From assembly GCA_011374735.1 (NCBI GenBank), contig DRPD01000315.1, positions 1 to 12,900 of the forward strand: a stretch of DNA of 12,900 nt, in the 5' to 3' direction. The stretch comes from Thermopetrobacter sp. Its GTDB lineage: Bacteria; Pseudomonadota; Alphaproteobacteria; Rhizobiales; Aestuariivirgaceae. This document shows, piece after piece, positions 44-12,788 of this stretch (its first letter is position 1; each line of letters opens with the position of its first letter). Below the pieces are notes generated by a model, which worked only from the letters and a program-made list of their open reading frames with translations, had not been told where the DNA came from and ran no database searches. The translations under genes were made by a program, and so were the position numbers.

Positions 44-3000
44 TCATTCTTCCACGATGCGAGTTGTGGCCGGGCGGAACCGGCGCAACAGTTCTTCAGG
101 CAGTTCCATGAGCCGCGGCAATGCCGTCCACAACAGCGCGCCGCGGATGGCATGCCCCGGCCACAGGGGTTGCGCCGCGGCGGCGTAGGCGGCCAGCTGT
201 GCGATGTATTCCTCCGCCACCCCGGCGATGTCGGCCGGCGGCGGGCGGTTGCTCTTGTAATCGACGATCAGCACCTGCCGGGCCTCTTCGAGCACCACCA
301 GCCGGTCGATCTGCCCGGAGATCAGCCGTTCGCGCCCCGTGGCATCGATGATGCGCGCCGCGATCGAGACCTCGGCCCGGCTGCCCGGCCCGAACAGCGG
401 CGCGAAGTCGGGATGGTTCATCACCCCGTGGACTTCTTCCCACAGGGCTTTTGCTTCATCGGACGGCATGGCGTGAAAGCGCGTCAGCCAATCGATGGCC
501 TTGCGCTGGCGCGCCGCCGCCGGCAGGTCGGGCAGGAACTGCAGCAGGCGGTGGATCAGATCGCCGCGCCGGAATGGATCGGCGCCGCCCCCGGCCAATG
601 GCGAGAGCACGGCCGGCATCGGCATCCCGCGGCCCAGCCGGGACGGCGCCGCCCAGTCGCGCGCCGTATCCGGGTGGGCTGGCCGTCGGCCCGCCCAGCG
701 GGGCAGAGATGACGGTGCGGCCGCTTGCGCGCCGTGCGCGGCGGTGGCCGAATCGGCTGTCGGCGGGTAGCGCCAGATGTCTCCCGTATTCAGCTCGTCA
801 TGGGCCAGCTGGCGGGCGAAGCGCGCATACCAGCTGCCGTTCGGGGCCTCTTCCCGTCGCTTGTCCAGCGCGCCGCAGACGATCAGTCGGTCGCGGGCCC
901 GCGTCATCGCCACATAGAGTTGACGATTGTATTCGCGCATCTGTTCGGCCAGCGCCCGCGCGATCAGATCGTCGCCCTGTTCATGGCGCAAGCCGGAAGG
1001 CAGCCACAACGGCACGCCGGCGTCACGGCCATCGCCATGGACATGAAATTCGAGATGGCGTTTGTCCGGCCTGCTGGTGGTATCGGCCAGGAACACCACC
1101 GGCGCCTCCAGCCCCTTGGCGCCATGCACGGTCATCACCCGCACTTCGCCGCGCGGCGCCTCCATGTCCCGTTTCAGCTCCGTGCCGGAGGCTTCCAGCC
1201 CTTCCAGAAAGCTCAGCAGCGCCGCATCGCCATCGCGTTCGTGGCGCCGGGCCAGATCGAGAAAGGCCTCCAGCGGTTCTTTCGCCTCACGCCCCAGCCG
1301 GCCGATGAAGGCGCGGCGCATGCCGTCGCGCCCCAGCAGGCGCGTGAAGAATGCCGCCGGCGGCAGGGCGAGCGCTTCGTCCCGCCAGCGTTCCAAGGTG
1401 GCGACGGCCCGCCGCGCCGGCGGGTGGTGGCGCAGTTGCGCCCACAAGGCGGCGCGCCGCCCGCCCCGCGTGGCGCGCAGGCGGATCAGGTCGTCGTCAT
1501 CGAACCACGCCCCATCGTCGCGCCGCAGCAGCGGGCTTTTCAGCACACAGGCCAGGGCCAGGTCGTCTTCGGTGTTGAGCAGGAAGCGGCCCAGGGAGAT
1601 CAGATCGCGCACCGCGATATGCTCGCCCACCTTCAGCCGGTCGGCGCCGGCCACCGGAATATCCCGTTGTTTCAGGGCCGAAATGATGGCGTCCATCAGC
1701 GTGGTGCGGGTGCGCACCAGAATGAGGATGTCGCCCGGTTCGATGGCCCGGGTTCGTTCCCCGTGGCCATCCTTGACGGTGATGGGCTCTCCCGCATCCA
1801 GCCAGCGGCGGATGGTCGCGGCGAGGCGTGCGGCGAGACGCAGACGCGGATGATACGCCTCTTCCAAGGAGCCCGGCGCGGCCCACTTGTCGAGCGCCTC
1901 GCCGCCGGCCAGCGCCTTTTCCGGCGGCCACAGCTCGACGCTGCCGCGCGCCGCGCGCCGCGCGGCCACATGAGGGGGGATTCTCCCATCGATCCCCAGC
2001 GTCATGTCGTCCTGCGTCAAGACCCGGTCGATGATGGTGAGCACCTGCGGCGCGGTGCGGAACGACACGTCCAGCGGCACGGCGCGGAATTCCTGTTCGG
2101 CGGCCGTGACCCGCTGCTCGAAATACGCCTGCATGCGGGCGAATTCCGCCGGCGCGGCGCCCTGAAAGGAATAGATCGACTGCTTGAAGTCGCCCACCGC
2201 GAACACCGTGCGCTCCACCTCCGGGCGCGCCCCGGCGCCGGCCGTGAATTCCTCCGTCAGCCGGCGGATGATCTCCCATTGGCGCGGCGAGGTGTCCTGT
2301 GCCTCGTCGATCAGCAGATGATCGATGCCGCCGTCCAACCGGTAGAGCACCCATGGCGCGACGGGATTGTCCTCCACTTCCAGCAACGCCAGCGTGCGGG
2401 CGATCAGATCGTCGTAATCGTAATGGCCGCTGGCCGCCTTGGCGCGTTCGTAGCGTTCGAGCACCGCCACGCCGACATCGATCAGCGCCGCGTTGAGATC
2501 GCGCAACCGCGCGGCGCGCTGGCGCTGCAAGGCGGCGTGGGTGGCGTCACGCAAGGCGAAAAGCGCGGCGGCCACATCGGGGCGCTCTTTTGCGGCGTTC
2601 GGGGTCAGCACGGAGCGGTCGGCCTTCGCTTGCTCTTTTGCGGTCAGAAAGGCCCGCTTGGCCAGCGCAAAGGCCTGATCCGGGGTTTCGGCGGCCAGCA
2701 GTGCGGCCAACGTGGCGGCTTGCCCCTTGTCCGTGTCCGTCGTTTTCCGCGCCAGAAACGCGGTGGCTTCTTGCAAAGTGTCGCGTGGCAGCCCGGCATG
2801 CCAATGTTCGATGATGGCGGCGGCGTCCTCCGTGCCGGCGGCCAGCAGGGCGCGCTGACGGTCATGCAATTCCTGCTTCGCCTGCGCGACGCGGCGCCGG
2901 TCTTCATGCAGCAGCGGGCGCAGCAGGTGGGCCTGGGCCAGCAGCTTGTGCAACAGGTCGTCGAAATCACGCTCGCCGCGATGCGCCGCGATCTCGCCGA

Positions 3001-3544
3001 TGGCCGCCGCCAATCGCCGGTCATTGGCGGCCAGCACCCCGGCCCGGGCCGCCGCCAGCAGCTCGGCGGCGGCGGCTTCGTCCAGCACCTCGAAGCCCGG
3101 TGGCACCCCGGCCTCCACCGGAAAGGCCTGCAACAGCCGCTCGCAGAAGGCGTGGATGGTCTGCACCTTCAGCCCGCCCGGCGTCTCCAGGGTGCGGGCG
3201 AACAGGCGGCGCGCCAGCACCAGTTCGTCACGCTTCAGCCTGACGCCGAGGGTTTCGTGAATGTCGGTGATCAGTTCGTCATCGCCCTTGTCGATCCACG
3301 AGGCCAGCCGATCGAAGATGCGCGCCTTCATCTCCGCCGCCGCGGCGCGGGTGTAGGTCAGGCACAGGATGCGGGCCGGATCGGTGCCGGTCAGCAGCAG
3401 GCGGATGACCCGGTTGGCCAGCAGGTGGGTCTTGCCGGAGCCGGCATGGGCGCTGACCCAGGCCGAGGCGGCCGGATCGGCGGCCCGGTTCTGCTGCCGC
3501 TGGGCCTTCTGCTCCGGCGCGGCGGGCGGCGTGTCGCGGCTCAT
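44..3544 (-). CDS. addA: AddA, helicase-nuclease subunit of the double-strand break repair complex AddAB
   Basis: AddA is the UvrD-type (SF1A) helicase and nuclease subunit of AddAB. The complex unwinds and resects broken DNA ends and loads RecA in the cytoplasm. The 1166-residue protein shows all expected motifs: Walker A AHAGSGKT (about 32-39), motif Ia LTYTRAAAAEMK, Walker B DEAQD (413-417), motif III GDFKQSIYSFQG (451-462), motif V TVHGAKGLE, motif VI YVAMTRARDRL, and a C-terminal RecB-type nuclease domain with GQIDRL, DYKSNR (D1080, D1095, K1097) and a following QLAAY. The start at 3544 is chosen because its ATG overlaps the addB stop as ATGA (3541-3544), with AGGA upstream. The reading frame is open to an ATG at 3580, but the extra 12 residues look unlike the family. 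It is the last gene before a terminator. Length and motifs are normal for alphaproteobacterial AddA. Confidence 0.96.
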   Translation of the reverse strand: MSRDTPPAAPEQKAQRQQNRAADPAASAWVSAHAGSGKTHLLANRVIRLLLTGTDPARILCLTYTRAAAAEMKARIFDRLASWIDKGDDELITDIHETLGVRLKRDELVLARRLFARTLETPGGLKVQTIHAFCERLLQAFPVEAGVPPGFEVLDEAAAAELLAAARAGVLAANDRRLAAAIGEIAAHRGERDFDDLLHKLLAQAHLLRPLLHEDRRRVAQAKQELHDRQRALLAAGTEDAAAIIEHWHAGLPRDTLQEATAFLARKTTDTDKGQAATLAALLAAETPDQAFALAKRAFLTAKEQAKADRSVLTPNAAKERPDVAAALFALRDATHAALQRQRAARLRDLNAALIDVGVAVLERYERAKAASGHYDYDDLIARTLALLEVEDNPVAPWVLYRLDGGIDHLLIDEAQDTSPRQWEIIRRLTEEFTAGAGARPEVERTVFAVGDFKQSIYSFQGAAPAEFARMQAYFEQRVTAAEQEFRAVPLDVSFRTAPQVLTIIDRVLTQDDMTLGIDGRIPPHVAARRAARGSVELWPPEKALAGGEALDKWAAPGSLEEAYHPRLRLAARLAATIRRWLDAGEPITVKDGHGERTRAIEPGDILILVRTRTTLMDAIISALKQRDIPVAGADRLKVGEHIAVRDLISLGRFLLNTEDDLALACVLKSPLLRRDDGAWFDDDDLIRLRATRGGRRAALWAQLRHHPPARRAVATLERWRDEALALPPAAFFTRLLGRDGMRRAFIGRLGREAKEPLEAFLDLARRHERDGDAALLSFLEGLEASGTELKRDMEAPRGEVRVMTVHGAKGLEAPVVFLADTTSRPDKRHLEFHVHGDGRDAGVPLWLPSGLRHEQGDDLIARALAEQMREYNRQLYVAMTRARDRLIVCGALDKRREEAPNGSWYARFARQLAHDELNTGDIWRYPPTADSATAAHGAQAAAPSSLPRWAGRRPAHPDTARDWAAPSRLGRGMPMPAVLSPLAGGGADPFRRGDLIHRLLQFLPDLPAAARQRKAIDWLTRFHAMPSDEAKALWEEVHGVMNHPDFAPLFGPGSRAEVSIAARIIDATGRERLISGQIDRLVVLEEARQVLIVDYKSNRPPPADIAGVAEEYIAQLAAYAAAAQPLWPGHAIRGALLWTALPRLMELPEELLRRFRPATTRIVEE

Positions 3545-6500
3545 GGCGTCTCGTCCTGCTCCGGTTGCACATGCTGCCATTCGGCGCGCCGGGCCAGATG
3601 GCCGTAGTCGTCATGGCCGCCGCGCAACACCGGCCAGAAGGGCTGGCCGGGATCGAGATAAGCGCCCAGCAAACGCGCCAGGCCGTCCAGCGCCGCCGCG
3701 GCCCGCCGCGCGGGCGGGGGCGATGTCTTCGCGGTATTCAACGGCTGGATCTCGCCGGGTGGCGTGCCGCCGGTGATCTTCACATACATCATCTCCGCCA
3801 CGGCGCGCCGGCCCGCGTCGGCGAAGCCGCCATGGATCAGGATCGCCGCCTCCAGATCGAGTTGCGGATCGTAGCCTTGCGCCGTCGGGTCGCGGGCCGG
3901 GGGATTGCCGGTCTTGAAATCCATCAGACGCGCCTGACCGTCGTTCAGCAGGTCGATCCGATCGGCGATGGCCGACAACGTGCAGTCACGCGCGCCGGCG
4001 GCGAAGGTCATCTCGCCCTTCGTCTCGGCCAGGATTCGCTCAACGCCGTCGCGCCATTGTCGCTCGCGGGCGATCAGCCATTGCGCCAGCCGCTGAAAGC
4101 GGGCCGCGAAGAAGCGCCGGGGGGCCGGCTCGGCGACGCGTTCGGCCAGCGCCGCCTCCAGATGTTCGCGCAGCCGGGTCTCGGCCTCATCGGGCAGCGT
4201 GCGTGGATGATCGCGCAAAAACGCCTCGATGCCGGCGTGCATGGCCGTGCCCAGCACCAGCGGCGTGAGGCGGCAGGGCAGTTCCGGCAGCTTTTCCAGC
4301 CGCAGGACGTGGCGCGCGTAATAGCCGTAAGGGTCGTTGCGCAGCGTGCCCACCCGGCTGGCGGAGATGTGCGCGGGGCGCATGTCGGCCGGCGGCGCCG
4401 GGGCCGGCGGAGCGGTGGGGCGCGGTGGGGCGGCGGGTTCGTCCAGCGCCTCGGCCCAGTTCAAGGGGTCGTGAGGGGGAACCGGCCGCAGGGCATCCGC
4501 CGCCCCGGCGGCGCGCAGCAGGGCCTCCAATCGCAACAGCCAGCGTGATTTTTCCGCCGGTTGCTGGTCGATGCGGGCGGCGCAGGTCATCCACACCTCA
4601 CGGCCCGCCGCGGCCTGGGCGAAGTCATGAGCCGCCAGGCCAATGAAGCGTTCCGGCGGGGGCAGGCCGAGATGGGCCTTGTCCGGCCTGTTGAGCCACG
4701 GGTCATTGTCGGCCACCGGCGGCCACACGCCTTCGTTCAGACCGCCCAGAATGACCCGGTCGGCATGCATCAGCCGCGCTTCCAGCAGGCCGTGGATGGC
4801 CAGCCGCCCGGCGGCCGGCGCCCGAGGGCGCACCGGGCGGGCCGCCAGCTCGGGGAAGAAGAAGGCGATGTAGGAAGCCGGGCTGACGGCCGGCGCGCCG
4901 GCGGCGTGGGCGAGAATGTCGTGGGCCGCGGCGGCCAGCCCCGCGCCGGCCTCGCCGCGCCACAGCAATGGCGTGCCGTCTTCATCGGTGGCGATGGCCT
5001 CGGCGGTCTGCAGATGGGCCCGCAGCAGCCGCTCGAAGTCGATCGGCGTGGTGCGCCGGAACAGATCGCTCATGTCCGTCAAGGCGGCGGCGATGCATTC
5101 CGCCAATCGTTCGATGAGCCGCCACTGCCCATCGTCGATGGCCTTCGCGGCGCGGTGCTCATGGCGGTTGCGCCGGACTTCCGCGCGGCGCTGGCGCACC
5201 AGTTGGGGCAGTTCGGCGATGCCCGGCCAGTTGACCACGGGGCGCAACACCGCCACCTCCAGCAGCCGCGCCGCCGTCGCGACGTCGGCCCGGGCCATGC
5301 CGAAACGGGCCAGCGGGTGGGCCAGCAGCGCCGCCAGTTGCGGCGGCGCGCCGTCATGCCTGGCGGCCTGGCCCAGCAGCTTCAGGAAGATGCCCGGCGT
5401 GGTGTCGGCCAGCGGTTCGCCGGCACTGTCGTCGATGGCGATGTCCCAGCGCGCCAGCTCGTCGCGCACCGCCCGGGCCAGGTCGCGATCCGGGGTGATC
5501 AGGGTGCAGGTCTGTTGCGGTTTCTCCAGCACCTCGCGCATCAGCAGGGCGATGGCCCGGGCCTCCAGATGGCGGCTCGGCGCCTCGATGAGCCACAAGC
5601 CTTCGGCCCCGTCGCGCAGGGCTTCGGCACCGCGAATGGCGCTGTCGCGCCAGTGCTCGGTGGTTTCCGCCGGCCGCATGGCCTCGCGCAACAACCGCAC
5701 GCGATGGGGGCGGCGGCGGAAATGGTCGCTGCCGGGCAGCTCCGCCACCTCCCTGCGATGCACCCCCATGTGCTCCAGCAATTGCTTCATGCCGTATTGC
5801 GGGTGGCTTTCCTCCAGCGCCTCCCAATCGGCCTTGCCCATGGCCCGCGCCAGCCCCGGCAGGATGACGCAGCCGTTGCCAAGCCGTGCGATCATTCCCA
5901 GCAATTCGGCGGTGGCGGCGATGCTGCCGGTGGAGCCGGCGGCGATCACCGGTTCGGCGGGCGGGTTCTCCCGCAGCGTGCGGGCGACGGCGCGCAGCAA
6001 CTCGCCGCGCCGCGCCGCGGCGCCCATGCGCCCCATCCTCTCCAGCAGCCCGGGATATTCAGCGGCCATGAACGCCAGCAGCTCCAGCGTGGCGAGGCGA
6101 TGTTCGGGACGATCCGCCGCCAGTTCATGCACCTTCGACAGCGCGTCCAGCGGCAGCCGGGCGTTCTCGCACAGATCGATGAGCCGCCCCAATGAGGCGG
6201 CCAGCCGGATGGCCTCGCCGGGGGTATGGCGGATAATGTCGGCCAGCGGCCATTGATCGTTGTCCTTCGCCCAATCGGCGATCAGCCCGGCCAGCAGAAA
6301 ACGCCGGGCCAGCGGCGCGATGGGCGGCGGCAGGTCGTGCGACGGGTCGCCGGCGGCGCTGGCGAAGGCCAGCTCGTCCTCATCCACGTCGCCCAGCGGC
6401 CGGATGCGCGGCAGCACGCCGCTCGCCTGTCCGCTCTGCTCCAGCACGGCGGCGGCCAGCGCCCGGGCGGCGCGGCGGCTGGGCAGGAAGATATGCCAAC

Positions 6501-6645
6501 CGGCGATCTCCCTCGGGTCGGGCCTGCGGCCGCCTGGCTGCGGCAGGTGGCCGTCCAGAATGGCCCGCGCCAATGCGGGCAGGAACGGCACGTCGGGATC
6601 GATGGTATAGACCCGCGGGCGACGGTGTTGTCCTTCAGCTGGCAT
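3541..6645 (-). CDS. addB: AddB, alphaproteobacterial-type partner subunit of AddAB
   Basis: This is the second subunit of the AddAB helicase-nuclease, which repairs double-strand breaks with AddA and RecA. The 1034-residue protein begins with RVYTIDPDVPFLPALARAI, typical of the alphaproteobacterial family. It carries GSTGS (237-241) and GGLNEGVWPP (634-643) in the helicase-like core. A proline/alanine-rich linker (about 733-757) leads to a RecB-type nuclease domain with GTAMHAGIEAFL (799-810), ADRIDLL (D895), MDFKTG (D909, K911) and PQLDLEA (Q928). No Walker A motif is visible near the N-terminus, and the C-terminus lacks the cysteine cluster that binds Fe-S in Firmicutes AddB. Both are consistent with the alphaproteobacterial branch. 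The ATG lies 11 bases inside the end of murU, with GGAGG about 15 bases upstream, so translation is probably coupled to murU. The end overlaps the addA start by four bases. Confidence 0.94.
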   Translation of the reverse strand: MPAEGQHRRPRVYTIDPDVPFLPALARAILDGHLPQPGGRRPDPREIAGWHIFLPSRRAARALAAAVLEQSGQASGVLPRIRPLGDVDEDELAFASAAGDPSHDLPPPIAPLARRFLLAGLIADWAKDNDQWPLADIIRHTPGEAIRLAASLGRLIDLCENARLPLDALSKVHELAADRPEHRLATLELLAFMAAEYPGLLERMGRMGAAARRGELLRAVARTLRENPPAEPVIAAGSTGSIAATAELLGMIARLGNGCVILPGLARAMGKADWEALEESHPQYGMKQLLEHMGVHRREVAELPGSDHFRRRPHRVRLLREAMRPAETTEHWRDSAIRGAEALRDGAEGLWLIEAPSRHLEARAIALLMREVLEKPQQTCTLITPDRDLARAVRDELARWDIAIDDSAGEPLADTTPGIFLKLLGQAARHDGAPPQLAALLAHPLARFGMARADVATAARLLEVAVLRPVVNWPGIAELPQLVRQRRAEVRRNRHEHRAAKAIDDGQWRLIERLAECIAAALTDMSDLFRRTTPIDFERLLRAHLQTAEAIATDEDGTPLLWRGEAGAGLAAAAHDILAHAAGAPAVSPASYIAFFFPELAARPVRPRAPAAGRLAIHGLLEARLMHADRVILGGLNEGVWPPVADNDPWLNRPDKAHLGLPPPERFIGLAAHDFAQAAAGREVWMTCAARIDQQPAEKSRWLLRLEALLRAAGAADALRPVPPHDPLNWAEALDEPAAPPRPTAPPAPAPPADMRPAHISASRVGTLRNDPYGYYARHVLRLEKLPELPCRLTPLVLGTAMHAGIEAFLRDHPRTLPDEAETRLREHLEAALAERVAEPAPRRFFAARFQRLAQWLIARERQWRDGVERILAETKGEMTFAAGARDCTLSAIADRIDLLNDGQARLMDFKTGNPPARDPTAQGYDPQLDLEAAILIHGGFADAGRRAVAEMMYVKITGGTPPGEIQPLNTAKTSPPPARRAAAALDGLARLLGAYLDPGQPFWPVLRGGHDDYGHLARRAEWQHVQPEQDETP

Positions 6646-7384
6646 CGGCTGGCGGATGCGCCTCCTTGTCGTGTTGACGCATGATCCGTTCCGCCTCCGG
6701 AATGGCTTGCGGCGTGCCCACGTGCAGCCACCGGCCGTCGTGGGGCAGGCCGAACAGGCGGCCGGCCGTCATGGCACGGTCGAACAGCCGGTTCATGGAA
6801 AACGGCCCGTCGGGCGCCGCGGCGAAGAGGCGCGGATGGAGCAGATAGACGCCGGTGAAGATTTCGCCCGCCCCGCCGGCTTCGGCGCGGCGCAGGCGGC
6901 CGTCCGCTTCGCGCGTGAAATCGACGCCGCCGCCGTGGCCGACGGCGCGCGCCGGATCGACGGTGAGCAGCAGGATGTCCATGCGCGCCTCGTCCCACGC
7001 GCTTTGCAGGCCGGCCAGGGCCGGCGTGGGGCCGTCCAGCCAGATGCTGTCGCCATTGACGGCGAACAGCGGCGCGGGCGCGAAATGGGCCAGCGCCTTC
7101 TTCAGCCCGCCGCCGGTGTCCAGCAGCCGCTCGCGTTCATCGGAAACGATGATTTCCGGCGGCGCTGGCTGGCGGGCCGCCCAGCGCGCGATCTGCTCGC
7201 CCAGCCAGTGCATGTTGACGACGACGCGCCTGACGCCCTGGGCCCGCAGCCGCTGAAGCGCGTGATCGATGATCGGCCGCCCGGCCACCTCGATGAGCGG
7301 TTTCGGGGTGTGCTCCGTCAACGGCCGCATGCGCTGGCCAAGGCCGGCGGCGAAGATCATGGCCTGGGTGACGGCGCCTTGCAT
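6635..7384 (-). CDS. murU: MurU-type N-acetylmuramate-1-phosphate uridylyltransferase
   Basis: This is a sugar-1-phosphate nucleotidyltransferase of 249 residues. The N-terminal signature AAGLGQRMRPLT (12-23) followed by KPL (28-30) binds the nucleotide. LLDTGGGLKKAL (87-98) and VNGDSIW (109-115), with the metal-binding aspartate D112, follow the family order. MurU, characterised in Pseudomonas putida, makes UDP-MurNAc from MurNAc-1-phosphate and UTP. It lets recycled cell-wall sugar bypass MurA, the fosfomycin target. The specificity is inferred mainly from context, since the AmgK domain that supplies the substrate is encoded directly upstream. On sequence alone a glucose- or mannose-1-phosphate enzyme is possible, but the short length (no left-handed helix domain) favours MurU. 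The ATG abuts the upstream TGA and has a very strong Shine-Dalgarno sequence. Confidence 0.88.
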   Translation of the reverse strand: MQGAVTQAMIFAAGLGQRMRPLTEHTPKPLIEVAGRPIIDHALQRLRAQGVRRVVVNMHWLGEQIARWAARQPAPPEIIVSDERERLLDTGGGLKKALAHFAPAPLFAVNGDSIWLDGPTPALAGLQSAWDEARMDILLLTVDPARAVGHGGGVDFTREADGRLRRAEAGGAGEIFTGVYLLHPRLFAAAPDGPFSMNRLFDRAMTAGRLFGLPHDGRWLHVGTPQAIPEAERIMRQHDKEAHPPADAS

Positions 7385-8923
7385 TCACTCCTCCTTCAGC
7401 CCGTGCGGGAAATGCCGCGTGAACCATGCCGCCAGCGGCGCCAGCGCCGGGTGCTTCAGGGTGCGGCGCAGATAGTGGCGCACCCGGGGGATGTGGGCAA
7501 GATAGGCCGGCTTGCGATCGCGCATGGCCAGCCGGGCGAAGATGCCCAGCACCTTGCTGGCGCGCTGCGCGGCCATGATGGCGTAGGCGGCGCGAAAGGC
7601 ATTGTCGTCAAAGTCGGCATCGGCGGCGCGACGTGATGTGAGATAGCGGGCCAGCATCTCCTCCTCCAACGCCGCCGGAATGGTGAAGCGCGCATCCTGC
7701 AACAGCGACGCCAGATCATAGGCCGCCGGGCCCAGCACCGCGTCCTGCGTGTCGATCAGCCCCACCCGCTTCAGCCCGTCGCGCTCCGCCAGCCAGATCA
7801 GGTTGGGCGAATGATAATCGCGCAGCACCCACACCGGCTGGCCGACGCGGGCCCGTGGCAGCAGCGCGCGCCACGATGCGGTGAAGGCGGTGCGCGCCGT
7901 ATCATCCGGCCGGGTGTCGCTCAGGTGGGGCCAATACCAGTCCAGCAGCAGTTCGGCCTCGATCAGGAAGGCGTCGTCGTCGTAATCGGCCGGTTCATGC
8001 ACGCCGCCGCCGGGCAGCGCCACGGCGCGCGGCCAGCCCCGCGTGGCCATGTCGGCCAGCAGGTCGGTGGCCGCCGCCAGCGGCTTTCGCATCTCGCCTT
8101 GCCGATAGAGATCGCCGAACACCGCCGCGCCCAGATCCTCCAGCAGCATCAGGCCGCGCGGCAGGTCGTGGGCGTGGATGTCGGGCGCCGAATATCCCCG
8201 CTCGCGCAACACCGTGGCGATGGCGTAAACGGCGCCGGCGTCACGGGCCAGATGGGCCAGTTCATCGTAACCGCGGCCACCACGCACCGGCCGGCCGCCG
8301 GATCTGGCCGGCATGTCCATCAGGATGGCGGGCGGCTTGCCGGGGCAGGCGACGCGCTCATAGCGGCGGCTGGAGGCGTCGCCCTGCATGAAGCGGCGGC
8401 AAGCGCCGGCGGGGCACCAGCCGCTGATGAAATCACGGGCGGCGGCGAAGCGGGCCAGACGCGCCGTCCACCCGCCAAGACCGCGCAAGACCGCCACGCG
8501 GCCCGCTCCTTCCACCTTGAGATGAATATCCAGCCGGTCGGCGGCCACACCGGGCAGGCGGTCAGGCCATTCGATGAGCATCACGGCGCCTTCGGCCAGC
8601 TCGTCGAGGCCCAGTTCGTCCACCTCCACCGGATCTCCGATGCGGTAGAGATCCACATGCACGGCGGGGATGCGGGTGAACTCGTAGGTCTGCACCAGCG
8701 TGAAGGTGGGGCTTGGCACCTCGAACGGCCCCAGATCGGGGGCCAGGGCGTGGATCAGGGCACGCGCCAGGGTGCTCTTGCCGCTGCCCAGATCGCCGCG
8801 CAGCAGCAGCCGGTCACCGGGGCCGACGAACAGCGCCAGTTCGGCGCCCAGCGCCCGCGTCGCCGCTTCATCGGGCAGGGCGATCGTCAGATCATGGTGG
8901 CAAGGCGAGGTGGAGGCGGCCAT
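7385..8923 (-). CDS. Bifunctional TsaE ATPase / AmgK-type sugar kinase fusion
   Basis: One 512-residue protein carries two normally separate activities. Residues about 10-145 are TsaE, the ATPase needed for N6-threonylcarbamoyladenosine (t6A37) formation on tRNAs. They show Walker A GDLGSGKST (43-51), SPTFTLVQTYE (71-81), HVDLYRI (89-95) and IEWPDRLP (117-124). From about residue 177 (RRFMQGDASSRRYERV) the protein is a phosphotransferase of the AmgK family, which phosphorylates the anomeric carbon of MurNAc/GlcNAc. It shows LLEDLG (260-265), the catalytic loop RDYHSPNL (D369, N374) and the metal-binding IDTQDAVLGPAAYDL (D391). The reading frame is continuous with no internal stop. Fusions of this kind are known in some alphaproteobacteria. 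The start is four bases after the divL stop with no clear Shine-Dalgarno, so coupling is likely. MurU, the next enzyme, follows directly. The kinase substrate is inferred from family and neighbour. Confidence 0.9.
   Translation of the reverse strand: MAASTSPCHHDLTIALPDEAATRALGAELALFVGPGDRLLLRGDLGSGKSTLARALIHALAPDLGPFEVPSPTFTLVQTYEFTRIPAVHVDLYRIGDPVEVDELGLDELAEGAVMLIEWPDRLPGVAADRLDIHLKVEGAGRVAVLRGLGGWTARLARFAAARDFISGWCPAGACRRFMQGDASSRRYERVACPGKPPAILMDMPARSGGRPVRGGRGYDELAHLARDAGAVYAIATVLRERGYSAPDIHAHDLPRGLMLLEDLGAAVFGDLYRQGEMRKPLAAATDLLADMATRGWPRAVALPGGGVHEPADYDDDAFLIEAELLLDWYWPHLSDTRPDDTARTAFTASWRALLPRARVGQPVWVLRDYHSPNLIWLAERDGLKRVGLIDTQDAVLGPAAYDLASLLQDARFTIPAALEEEMLARYLTSRRAADADFDDNAFRAAYAIMAAQRASKVLGIFARLAMRDRKPAYLAHIPRVRHYLRRTLKHPALAPLAAWFTRHFPHGLKEE
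7388..7396 (-). promoter_or_regulatory. Strong Shine-Dalgarno of murU inside the end of tsaE/amgK
   Basis: The minus strand reads AAGGAGGAG TGA ATG. The GGAGG core (7394-7390) is five bases before the murU start at 7384, and the same bases encode the last residues (KEE) of the upstream fusion protein. This near-perfect ribosome binding site fixes the murU start. It also suggests that murU can load ribosomes on its own, besides re-initiating after the adjacent stop. Confidence 0.85.
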
Positions 8924-8927
8924 GGGT

Positions 8928-11357
8928 TCAGGACGTCTTGCGCCGGTGGGTGGCGGCCGGCAGGCGGCAGATGACGGTGGTGCCGTGACCCAGTTGCGAT
9001 TCCAGGCGCACCGAGCCGTCGTGCATTTCCACCAGCTCCTTCACCAGCGGCAGGCCGAGGCCGGTGCTGCCGCGCCCGCGATTGGCGCCGCTTAAGGTGG
9101 TGAAGCGTTCGAAGGCGCTGTCGATGAACGCCGCATCGATGCCCGGCCCCTCGTCGCTGATGCGGATTTCGATGGCCTGGCCGTCGAGCCGCGCGCCGAT
9201 GCGCACCGTGGTGCCTTCGCCGGAATAGCCGATGGCATTGTTCAGCACATGGCGCAGGGCGTGGGTCAGCAGCGTGGCGTCGGCGGCGACGTGCAGGCCG
9301 TCAGGCGCGTCCACCTCGATGGCGACGCCGCGCCGGCGGGCTTGGGCGCGCATGGCGTCGCCCACCTCCTTCAGCAGGTCGGTCAGATCGAATGGCTCGA
9401 TATCGGGCTCCAGCTGGCCGGCGTCGATGCTGTTGAGCAACAGGATGGTGTCGATGGTTTCCGACAGTTCGTCGGAAGCGGCGCGGATCAGCTTCAGCTT
9501 CTCGCGCTGGGCGTCGTTCGGCGGGTTGGCCCGGTCGCTTTCCAGCAGTTCGGTGAACCCCATGATGGAGGTCAGCGGGGTGCGCAGCTCGTAGGAAATG
9601 GAGGCGAGGAAATCGGCCTTCATGCGATCCGCCTCCATCAGCGCCGCGTGCTTCTCGCGCAGATTGCGCTCCGCTTCGATGACCGAAGTCATGTCATACC
9701 AGGTGAGCAACGTGTTGCCGTCCGGCAGGGTGACGGCGGCATGCTTGAAGGTGCGCCCGTCGGTGAAGGCGGTCTGATCGCTCAGGGTGTGGCGGGCCTC
9801 ATGCATGCCGGTGACGGCGTATTTGATATCGTCCCACCAACCGTCCTCCGCCACCAGTTGGCGGCAGCGTCCGATGATATCGTCGATGTGCGGTTCGCGG
9901 CGCAGGAAACCGTCGTCGAAACCGAAGAACGCCGCGTAGGAGGGATTGTAGAGCTTCAGCCGTCCGTCGGTGCCGAACAGGGCGATGCCTTCATGCAGGT
10001 TGTCCAGCGTCTCGCGCTGCACGTCCATCAAGGTGCGGTAGCGCGCCTCCAGCCGCAAGCGTTCGGTGATGTCGGTGAAGATGTAGATGACGCCGCCGTC
10101 GGCATACGGCTCGGCCACCACCCACAAGGTGCGCCCGCCGGCCATGTGCCAGTGATCCTCATCGCCCTTGCCGGTGCTGTAGATGGCCATGCGCGCATCG
10201 CGCCACTTGCGAAATTCGCCCTGAATATCAAGGCGCCCTTCCTCATGCAGGTGGCTGAGAATTTCGCTGTCCAGCGGTTGACCGGCCAGCCAGGCGGGGT
10301 CGAGATCCCACAGCTTCGCATAGGCCGCGTTGTGGAAGATCAGCCGTTGATCGGGGCCGAAGATGGCGATCGCCTGGTCGAGCTTGTCCAGGGTGCGGCG
10401 GTTGGCGGCGATATAGGTGTCCAGATCGCGCCGCAGCGTTTCCTCGCGCGTCGCGTCCAGCGCCCAGCACACGGTGCCGATGTCGCGCCGCACTTCGATG
10501 ATCTCGTAGACGCGCTTTTCCTCGCCGACGATGGTGTCGGCGCGATAGCGCCTGGCGCCGTCCTCGCCTGCTTGCACATCACGCGCCGCATCCGGCCGCA
10601 CCAGCGAGAGGCCGCGCGCCACGGCGACGTTGAAGTCCGGCTCGTCTACCGCCTTCAGCCACGCCTCGTTGGCCCATAGCAGCTCACCGTCGGCGTCATG
10701 CAGCCACACCGGCAGCGGGGCCGAATCCAGCAATCCCGACAGGCGCTCGATCTGTCCGGTCAGATGACGGCTGGCCTCGATCGCCTCGAAAGCGTCGCGG
10801 CGTTCGCCGAACACCGGCCGGAAGCGCAGCGAAATGGAATAGCCGGCGGTGCGCCCGTCGGCCTCAAGCAATTCGCCGGCCCGGGTCTTCACCGAGATGT
10901 TGAAGGCGCGGCCCTCGCGCTTCAAGGCGCGCAGCGCCCGGTTCAGACGCGCCGCCGCCTCCTCTTCCAGCCAGCCGGCGAAGTCGGCCAGTTTCTCCGC
11001 GTCGCGCGGCACCCCGGAGATGACGTGCAGGCGCATGAAGGAGCGCGCCGGCGCCTCGCCGCGATCGTCCCAGATCAACAGCGCGTTGGGTTCGGAAGCC
11101 AGCACCGTCTCCATCTCGTCGATCTGCCGCTGGAGCTCGCGCGCCCGCCGCCGGCTGCGCCGCAAGGCGGCGCGCAGTCGGGCCAGCGCGATGCCCCCCG
11201 CGGCGAGCGCGACGGCGGCCAGCGACAGGGCGAGCGGCGCGGCGGTGACCGACCAGCCGGCATCGGCGGCTTGCGCCGGCGGCCCGGCCACGGCGGACAG
11301 AACACCACCACCGATGAGTATCCGTATCGCTCCCTTCACCCCTGAAATCCGCCCCAT
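8928..11357 (-). CDS. divL: DivL-like PAS sensor kinase with tyrosine in place of the phospho-histidine
   Basis: This 809-residue membrane protein is built like a hybrid-free sensor kinase. It has a hydrophobic N-terminus ending GPPAQA-AD (possible signal peptide, about 1-31), a transmembrane segment (about 39-60), a basic coiled linker, PAS-like regions at about 206-300, 320-432 and 446-561, a DHp domain (about 575-645) and a HATPase domain. The HATPase domain shows N box HVLNNAIGYS (703-712), DEGPGID (735-741) and GSTGLGLPLVKEL (763-775). The H box reads SISYELRTPLTS, so Tyr589 (codon TAC, 9593-9591) stands where histidine is phosphorylated. That is the hallmark of DivL of Caulobacter (Tyr550), which receives input from DivK and controls the kinase CckA, and through it CtrA. 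The start at 11357 is chosen for GAGG seven bases upstream. The frame is open to 11534, but that extension looks non-coding. The CckA/DivK role is inferred from the family. Confidence 0.9.
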   Translation of the reverse strand: MGRISGVKGAIRILIGGGVLSAVAGPPAQAADAGWSVTAAPLALSLAAVALAAGGIALARLRAALRRSRRRARELQRQIDEMETVLASEPNALLIWDDRGEAPARSFMRLHVISGVPRDAEKLADFAGWLEEEAAARLNRALRALKREGRAFNISVKTRAGELLEADGRTAGYSISLRFRPVFGERRDAFEAIEASRHLTGQIERLSGLLDSAPLPVWLHDADGELLWANEAWLKAVDEPDFNVAVARGLSLVRPDAARDVQAGEDGARRYRADTIVGEEKRVYEIIEVRRDIGTVCWALDATREETLRRDLDTYIAANRRTLDKLDQAIAIFGPDQRLIFHNAAYAKLWDLDPAWLAGQPLDSEILSHLHEEGRLDIQGEFRKWRDARMAIYSTGKGDEDHWHMAGGRTLWVVAEPYADGGVIYIFTDITERLRLEARYRTLMDVQRETLDNLHEGIALFGTDGRLKLYNPSYAAFFGFDDGFLRREPHIDDIIGRCRQLVAEDGWWDDIKYAVTGMHEARHTLSDQTAFTDGRTFKHAAVTLPDGNTLLTWYDMTSVIEAERNLREKHAALMEADRMKADFLASISYELRTPLTSIMGFTELLESDRANPPNDAQREKLKLIRAASDELSETIDTILLLNSIDAGQLEPDIEPFDLTDLLKEVGDAMRAQARRRGVAIEVDAPDGLHVAADATLLTHALRHVLNNAIGYSGEGTTVRIGARLDGQAIEIRISDEGPGIDAAFIDSAFERFTTLSGANRGRGSTGLGLPLVKELVEMHDGSVRLESQLGHGTTVICRLPAATHRRKTS

Positions 11358-11364
11358 TGCCAGA

Positions 11365-11368
11365 CCTC
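11365..11368 (-). promoter_or_regulatory. Shine-Dalgarno that sets the divL start
   Basis: The minus strand has GAGG seven bases before the ATG at 11357. None of the in-frame upstream ATGs (11534, 11522, 11516, 11507) has an equally good site that I can see. Starting at 11357 also puts the hydrophobic segment close to the N-terminus, as expected for a membrane-targeted protein. Confidence 0.65.
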
Positions 11369-11545
11369 GAATGCGGCCTGCCGCCGCCCGGTGCAGCCGA
11401 AAACGGCCGGAATACGCGCCAGACGATACTGACCTGAATAAAGATGCGAGAACGCCGCCGGCCGGGTCCGAACGCCACGCAGCGGCGAATCGGCCCTGAA
11501 TCTTCATAATGCCCATCAGCATGCGACGGGGCAACCGCCGGCAAT

Positions 11546-11570: not shown

Positions 11571-12788
11571 TCAGGAAGAGAACTTCTGCGGCGGCGGCGC
11601 CACCACCTGCGGCCCGGCCGCACCGACGCTGAGGATGGCCAGCCCGCGTTCGATCAGGCCGTTGGGCTTCAGCCGGAACAGGCCGTTCATGCCCTGATAG
11701 CCCTTGGGGCTGGCGATGGCGCTGGTGGAAAACCCGGCCCGCCCGGCGGCGATGGCCAGCGAGGTGGCGTCATAGGCCAGCGAGGCGATGCGCGGCGGGC
11801 GCTTGCCATAGGTGCGCGCGAAGTGCGCGGCGAAATAGTCCACCAGCCGCGGCTCCACCCCGGCATACCAGCCGCCATGGGCCAGCCCCACGGTGCGGAT
11901 GGCGCGGCCGTCCCACAAACCGGTGCCCAGCAGCTGAATGCGGGCCGGATCGAACCCGCCGGCCTTAAGCGGCGCCGCGGCGGCCTTCACCAGTCCCGGC
12001 GCGGCGGGCAGGAACAGGGCGTCGGCCCGCCCCCCAAGCTGCGGCGCGACGCGGCCCGCGACGCTGGTGATGCCGGTGGGCGTGGCCACGAAATAGTCTT
12101 CGCGGACGATGCTGGCGCCATGGCGCGCCGCGGCGCTCTTCAAGGCGCGGCCGACGATCCGCCCATAGGCCGACTGCGGCAGCATGGCGGCGATGCGGCG
12201 CTTGCCTCGCGCCGCCGCGTGACGGATGACGTTGGCCACCTCCTCTTCGGGCAGAAAGCTCATCAGATAGACGCCGTTGCCGGCCACCGCCGACTGCGAG
12301 GAAAAGGCGATGACCGGAAGCGAGGCGGGCCGGGCCGCCGCGACGGCCTGCACTTCGGCCGCCAGCAGCGGGCCGAGGATCAGCCGCGCGCCTTCGCCGA
12401 GCGCCGCCTTGGCGGCGATGGCGGCGCCGGCGGCGCTGCCCTTGGTGTCCTTCACCACCAGCGTCAGGCCGGGATTGCCGGCGTCGATCATGGCCAGTTG
12501 CGCCGCCTGCTTCATGCTGCGCGCGATGCGCCCGACCGCGCCGCCGGCGCCGAGCGGCAGCAGCAGGGCGACGCGGGTGCCGCCGGCGGTGTCGGGCACC
12601 ACGGGCTTGGCCGGCTTCGCCGCCGGCGCATTGCCGAAATCGGGCAGCAGCCCGTCCATGCCGCCGGCGCAACCGCTCAGCAGCACGGCGCCCAGGGAAG
12701 TCAGAACACCGCGCCGGGTGACGCCGCCGGATGATTGGCGCTTTTCATCTTCGAACGTCGCCATGACGTATCGCCGCCGATCCATCAT
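11571..12788 (-). CDS. Penicillin-binding protein activator (LpoA/LppC-like) lipoprotein
   Basis: This is a lipoprotein of 405 residues with a periplasmic-binding-protein type I fold. The N-terminus has TRRGVLTSLGAVLLSGC: a twin-arginine-like motif, a hydrophobic stretch and the lipobox LSGC, which makes Cys40 the lipidated residue. The body begins with RVALLLPLGAGGAVGRIA and continues with ARLILGPLLAAEVQAVA, LPVIAFSSQSAVAG, and near the end SLAYDATSLAIAA and GLFRLKPNGLIERGLAI. This pattern is typical of the alphaproteobacterial family annotated as penicillin-binding protein activator. LpoA of enterobacteria stimulates PBP1A from the outer membrane; whether this shorter homologue does so is inferred. 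AAGGGGG (12799-12793) lies four bases before ATG 12788 and seven before ATG 12785, so either may be the real start. An ABC-transporter amino-acid binding protein is the main alternative, but no transporter genes adjoin it. Confidence 0.85.
   Translation of the reverse strand: MMDRRRYVMATFEDEKRQSSGGVTRRGVLTSLGAVLLSGCAGGMDGLLPDFGNAPAAKPAKPVVPDTAGGTRVALLLPLGAGGAVGRIARSMKQAAQLAMIDAGNPGLTLVVKDTKGSAAGAAIAAKAALGEGARLILGPLLAAEVQAVAAARPASLPVIAFSSQSAVAGNGVYLMSFLPEEEVANVIRHAAARGKRRIAAMLPQSAYGRIVGRALKSAAARHGASIVREDYFVATPTGITSVAGRVAPQLGGRADALFLPAAPGLVKAAAAPLKAGGFDPARIQLLGTGLWDGRAIRTVGLAHGGWYAGVEPRLVDYFAAHFARTYGKRPPRIASLAYDATSLAIAAGRAGFSTSAIASPKGYQGMNGLFRLKPNGLIERGLAILSVGAAGPQVVAPPPQKFSS

Follow-up and report, generated by a model that had tools for sequence, protein, structure and literature searches.

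The closest described counterpart of the protein analyzed here is DivL of Caulobacter, a cell-cycle regulator that resembles a signaling kinase. It is reported to have neither kinase nor phosphatase activity and to use the docking face of its DHp domain for binding DivK~P, with its PAS domains being needed for the preference for DivK~P (PMC4211667). Substitutions R553A, T557N, Y562A, and H579E disturb the binding between DivL and DivK, and a Y550H substitution is described as leaving DivK~P binding intact and harming growth; Y550H alone does not restore autokinase activity, and DivK~P can stimulate it (PMC4211667). The lack of autokinase activity, the control of CckA, and placement at the pole are all reported for the Caulobacter protein (PMC4211667, PMC7200025), and DivK is itself acted on by DivJ and PleC (PMC7200025). 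Elsewhere, DivL is reported to act with CckA in Sinorhizobium meliloti (PMC11500502), and a DivL homologue, Atu0027, is reported from Agrobacterium tumefaciens (PMC3577659).

The window, which is the whole stretch of DNA analyzed here, comprises 12,900 nucleotides of Thermopetrobacter sp. (GenBank assembly GCA_011374735.1, contig DRPD01000315.1), and all of the features described below lie on its minus strand. Its divL orthologue, assigned from the frame call, Pfam, a PDB match, reciprocal best hits, and a tree, is an open frame of 868 codons at 8928 to 11534, which is opened by a TTG as listed. The protein-database prediction (P0001), which is listed with "-" as its source and therefore taken to be the window's own protein, has 809 amino acids and starts at frame residue 60, the ATG at 11357, and this ATG is likely the translation start. 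The initial annotation had placed a TAC codon at 9593 to 9591 within the H box, and reading the minus strand of the 868-codon frame bore this out: the plus-strand letters at 9593, 9592, and 9591 are A, T, and G, TAC is codon 648, and the surrounding codons are TCC ATT TCC TAC GAG CTG CGC ACC CCG. The H box, SISYELRTPLTS (9567 to 9602), thus carries Tyr648 at the position of the phospho-accepting His of an ordinary HisKA sensor kinase. According to Pfam, the protein has the DivL layout, in which PAS domains precede DHp and HATPase_c. PAS_8 matched residues 263 to 295 (10650 to 10748), PAS_7 matched two stretches, the best of them at residues 382 to 496 (10047 to 10391), and the HisKA (DHp) domain at residues 639 to 706 (9417 to 9620) and the HATPase_c domain at residues 752 to 861 (8952 to 9281) scored 63.1 and 87.5 bits against cut-offs of 26.9 and 26.4, respectively. 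The most hydrophobic stretch, residues 100 to 118 (11181 to 11237; 19-residue Kyte-Doolittle mean, 2.05), is a possible membrane anchor. The earlier description of the N, G1, and G2 boxes as intact also held, with N (HVLNNAIGYS), G1 (DEGPGID), F (FERF), and G2 (STGLGLPLV) all readable, as did the accompanying statements that the gene is not decaying and that no response regulator adjoins it; scans of five window proteins with Pfam and of six with NCBIfam revealed no response regulator. In its PAS domains, its DHp Tyr, and its readable HATPase_c boxes, the protein is like Caulobacter DivL (4q20), and readable boxes of this kind do not imply catalysis, since they also occur in Caulobacter DivL, which reportedly has no kinase activity (PMC4211667).

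Homologues of the Caulobacter pathway partners DivK, CckA, ChpT, and CtrA, for which the initial annotation had suggested a genome search, were all present in the window's own genome (1.84 Mb in 410 contigs; 92.74% complete and 3.77% contaminated). The divK gene is on contig C102 (69% identity; E = 1.7e-54), where a second receiver frame, presumed from gene order to be PleD, adjoins it. Contig C171 carries ctrA (76% identity; E = 7e-117) and chpT (PF10090; 106.5 bits, over the cut-off). CckA, on contig C236, scored 834 bits with NF046020, below the cut-off of 1000 and far ahead of the models for proteins other than CckA, and its best solved relatives are 5idj and 5idm. A PdhS-like kinase on contig C216 scored 392 bits with NF041593, below the cut-off of 2000.

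If the Caulobacter mechanism also applies to the window protein, the latter would be a membrane-anchored dimer made up of PAS domains and a histidine-kinase core that has lost its phosphorylating activity. DivK~P would dock near Tyr648 and Arg651 on the helices of the DHp domain, and this docking would alter the shape of DivL such that its support for CckA is withdrawn; CckA would consequently act as a phosphatase instead of a kinase, and the flow of phosphate via ChpT to CtrA would fall. Without DivK~P, DivL would support CckA kinase activity. We infer the dimer, the docking, the direction of the effect, the absence of catalysis, and polar placement from the published work on Caulobacter DivL. 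Identity between the two proteins is 34% over 643 residues, and the residues at which DivK~P is predicted to dock are partly kept: Arg553, Thr557, and Asp595 of Caulobacter DivL correspond to Arg651, Thr655, and Asp695, whereas Tyr562, His579, and Ala601 are changed to Phe660, Lys679, and Asn701. Two of these changes, His579 to Lys and Ala601 to Asn, fall at docking or allosteric positions tested in Caulobacter and would fit a DivL whose main input is something other than DivK, with DivK playing little part, for which Hyphomonas neptunium, where DivK is reported to be dispensable and DivL essential, provides a precedent (PMC7200025). We consider such a protein improbable here, given that divK is present at the identity stated above and that the equivalents of Arg553 and Thr557 are kept.

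The proposed match to DivL was examined by three routes. The top PDB match was Caulobacter DivL (4q20; E = 9.7e-40, with the runner-up at 1.9e-25). When the window protein was compared to a C. vibrioides genome, DivL came first of 43 matches with 347 bits and the next match had 111, and in the reverse comparison, made against the window protein and eight other kinase frames of its own genome with CckA not among them, C. vibrioides DivL found the window protein first with 337 bits and the next with 133. The third route was the tree that the initial annotation had suggested. Ninety kinase rows were assembled: the window protein, its own CckA, six other kinase loci of its genome, 29 from Caulobacter (of the 30 loci fetched from 43 matches, L160 having no usable frame), and, picked by hand, 18 of the 29 relatives' loci and 35 of the 133 stretches sampled from the wider class. 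In a tree of the kinase core from which the Tyr column was left out and 35 of the 90 rows had been removed by hand as long or redundant, the remaining 55 rows placed the window protein inside a DivL clade with a bootstrap of 95 and an SH-aLRT of 93. This clade has 32 rows and was present in 94% of 200 bootstrap trees, and within it the window protein and relatives from its own genus form a five-row set (100/100). Outside the clade lie 23 rows, namely, six kinases of the same genome, 15 Caulobacter kinases, and two class-sample rows. DivJ and PdhS kinases, like PleC, have the DHp-HATPase_c core in common with the window protein; unlike it, both DivJ (L147; NF050805, 1072 bits) and the PdhS-like kinase of the same genome (L004) keep the His, and both fall outside the DivL clade. 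PleC was named by no model, and the tree covers it only to the extent that one of the unnamed Caulobacter rows is PleC. The CckA of the window's genome, a long branch, is not among the 55 rows; in a quick tree of all 90 rows, it lay on the opposite side from DivL. That tree gave the same division, with the DivL side at 93 but unstarred, and was weakly resolved, with 9 of 87 inner branches starred; in it, a long-branch Caulobacter His kinase (L148), one of the rows removed for the 55-row tree, stood beside the window protein (SH-aLRT, 94).

A PAS-HisKA-HATPase_c layout is common, and among 82 NCBIfam matches, the top 25 were to general kinase families and included no DivL, so that the name DivL rests on the PDB match, the reciprocal hits, and the tree. 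Both points would suit a sensor kinase of the ordinary type, with no relation to DivL, in which a His-to-Tyr change arose separately, but the reciprocal best hit, the DivL clade, the Tyr of its relatives, and the shared neighbor tsaE-amgK make this highly improbable, and we rejected an independent origin of the Tyr on the basis of the relatives' Tyr and the clade. The gene is, in all likelihood, the one divL found in its genome, and its product a DivL pseudokinase. The reading as DivL in the initial annotation is thereby supported: of the refuting outcomes that it named, neither a position outside the DivL clade nor a genome without divK and cckA was observed. The assignment corrects a generic kinase annotation to DivL and places the DivL-DivK-CckA-CtrA module in a lineage with a small genome.

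The Tyr was then followed across homologues. It was present in all 119 other homologues among the matches listed (120 of the 449 over the threshold, one of them the protein itself), one of which, P0002, comes from other sources and is 90% identical to the window protein. All 28 of the relatives' genomes in which DivL was matched also have it (29 loci, of which one lacks the H box), as do all 80 of the Caulobacter-type loci read, the top 80 of 475, which were found with patterns that did not cover the Tyr. The Tyr is the rule among DivL proteins; its presence at the His position is standard for DivL, and both the window protein and its setting are ordinary for a DivL. So fragmented an assembly might raise the suspicion of gene decay, a miscalled gene, or a wrong base at 9593 to 9591, but each of these is barely conceivable given the open frame, the readable boxes, and the Tyr in the 90%-identical protein, the other 118 listed homologues, and the relatives' genomes, and base error was rejected on these grounds. 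Among the 29 relatives, a genome of 2.3 Mb from the same order (G024) was alone in giving no DivL match at E = 1e-60. In a 1.4-Mb genome of the same order (L139), DivL kept the Tyr and had an altered N box and G1.

Next downstream of divL is a fused tsaE-amgK-like frame of 512 codons (7385 to 8923), for which TIGR00150 was over its cut-off and the AmgK part scored 250 bits with NF045698, below the cut-off of 500. It is followed by a murU-like nucleotidyltransferase (6635 to 7384; NF045697, 216 bits, below the cut-off of 370), addB (3541 to 6645; TIGR02786, 870 bits, over the cut-off), and addA (44 to 3580; TIGR02784, 1118 bits, over the cut-off). The AddA and AddB models matched are of the alpha type, which, together with the names of homologues, points to an alphaproteobacterial genome; the homologue names further suggest that it is close to the orders of S. 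meliloti and A. tumefaciens. Upstream of divL, the frame at 11571 to 12788 encodes a Peripla_BP_6/LppC-like protein by Pfam, for which the NCBIfam scan gave no match. In 27 of the 29 relatives' loci, the tsaE-amgK frame likewise comes after divL and has the same orientation, and the two exceptions (L128 and L140) read, from their coordinates, as pieces cut by contig ends. The same arrangement occurs in 54 of the 133 wider-class stretches, which were fetched with about 2 kb of flank. Caulobacter-type loci differ from the window in this respect, with tsaE-amgK lying within the stretch in 6 of 80, each time about 3 to 10 kb from divL. We claim no novelty for this gene order.

In the wider class, 130 of 241 genomes, including the window's own, had a DivL-like match at 1e-45. 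The sample comprised 133 stretches, 129 of them the best match of their genome after second matches (L299 to L302) were dropped, and 127 of which showed the residue once L280 and L288, without an H box, were also set aside; its members are DivL-like by score rather than individually established orthologues. Among these 127, there were 104 Tyr, 7 His, 3 each of Phe, Thr, and Gln, 2 Leu, and 1 each of Gly, Lys, Arg, Ser, and Val. DivK was found in 120 of the 241 genomes at E = 1e-30 or better, a line that we set ourselves and that left G212 (1.2e-30), G233 (1.2e-26), G156 (4.2e-26), and G167 (4.5e-26) just on its absent side and G122 (1.8e-33) just on its present side. With the partial frames L263 and L303 dropped, leaving 125 rows, the Tyr was present in 96 of 107 DivL rows with DivK versus 6 of 18 without it. 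Among rows retaining no more than one of the three ATP-site motifs, as scored with simple patterns on one alignment, 13 of 18 with DivK had the Tyr versus 0 of 9 without DivK (Fisher p = 0.0006, uncorrected for ancestry), with the latter nine genomes belonging to only five families and having best DivK matches of 2.1e-21 or weaker. A paired test of DivK against Tyr on the PAS-domain tree gave three pairs on starred branches and five in total (median p = 1), against the six or more differing pairs that its sign test needs, and independent losses of DivK are too few for the raw contrast to be separated from shared ancestry. Counting against a strict rule, the Tyr is retained together with most ATP motifs in six genomes without DivK and is absent from the DivL of 11 genomes that do have DivK. 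The loci having both Tyr and DivK and at most one of the three ATP motifs were L227, L250, L252, L253, L266, L269, L272, L279, L281, L285, L286, L290, and L294; the missing G2 of L266 may reflect a frame break, because its frame stops short, with the match extending only to query residue 797.

For the Rhodobacterales, it has already been published that the kinase part of DivL decays or disappears along with the loss of DivK (PMC9430884); a limited literature search found no statement that the Tyr persists after decay of the ATP site in genomes that still have DivK. One tentative possibility is that the Tyr is selected for reading DivK~P rather than being a catalytic relic, such that it would survive degeneration of the ATP site if DivK is present and be lost if DivK is absent, and that a few lineages, having returned to His with the ATP site intact, may once more have a DivL with kinase or phosphatase function. 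DivL proteins with a Tyr but no ATP site, as well as those bearing a His, bear on the role of this residue, and the wider DivL sample offers natural tests of what it does.

Of the seven His-bearing DivL-like proteins among the 127, three belong to one family and have intact ATP motifs and an adjoining tsaE-amgK (L243, L251, and L255). L188 also has intact ATP motifs, with no tsaE seen nearby, and L273 has decayed ATP motifs and an adjoining tsaE-amgK. In the PAS tree, whose backbone support was weak, these five lay near Tyr-bearing DivL proteins in an 11-row fork with a support of 92, and this proximity suggests reversion to His; some His-bearing DivL proteins are thus apparently reversions from Tyr. 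The remaining two, L289, with no DivK and partly decayed motifs, and L297, with decayed motifs, were located elsewhere in that tree.
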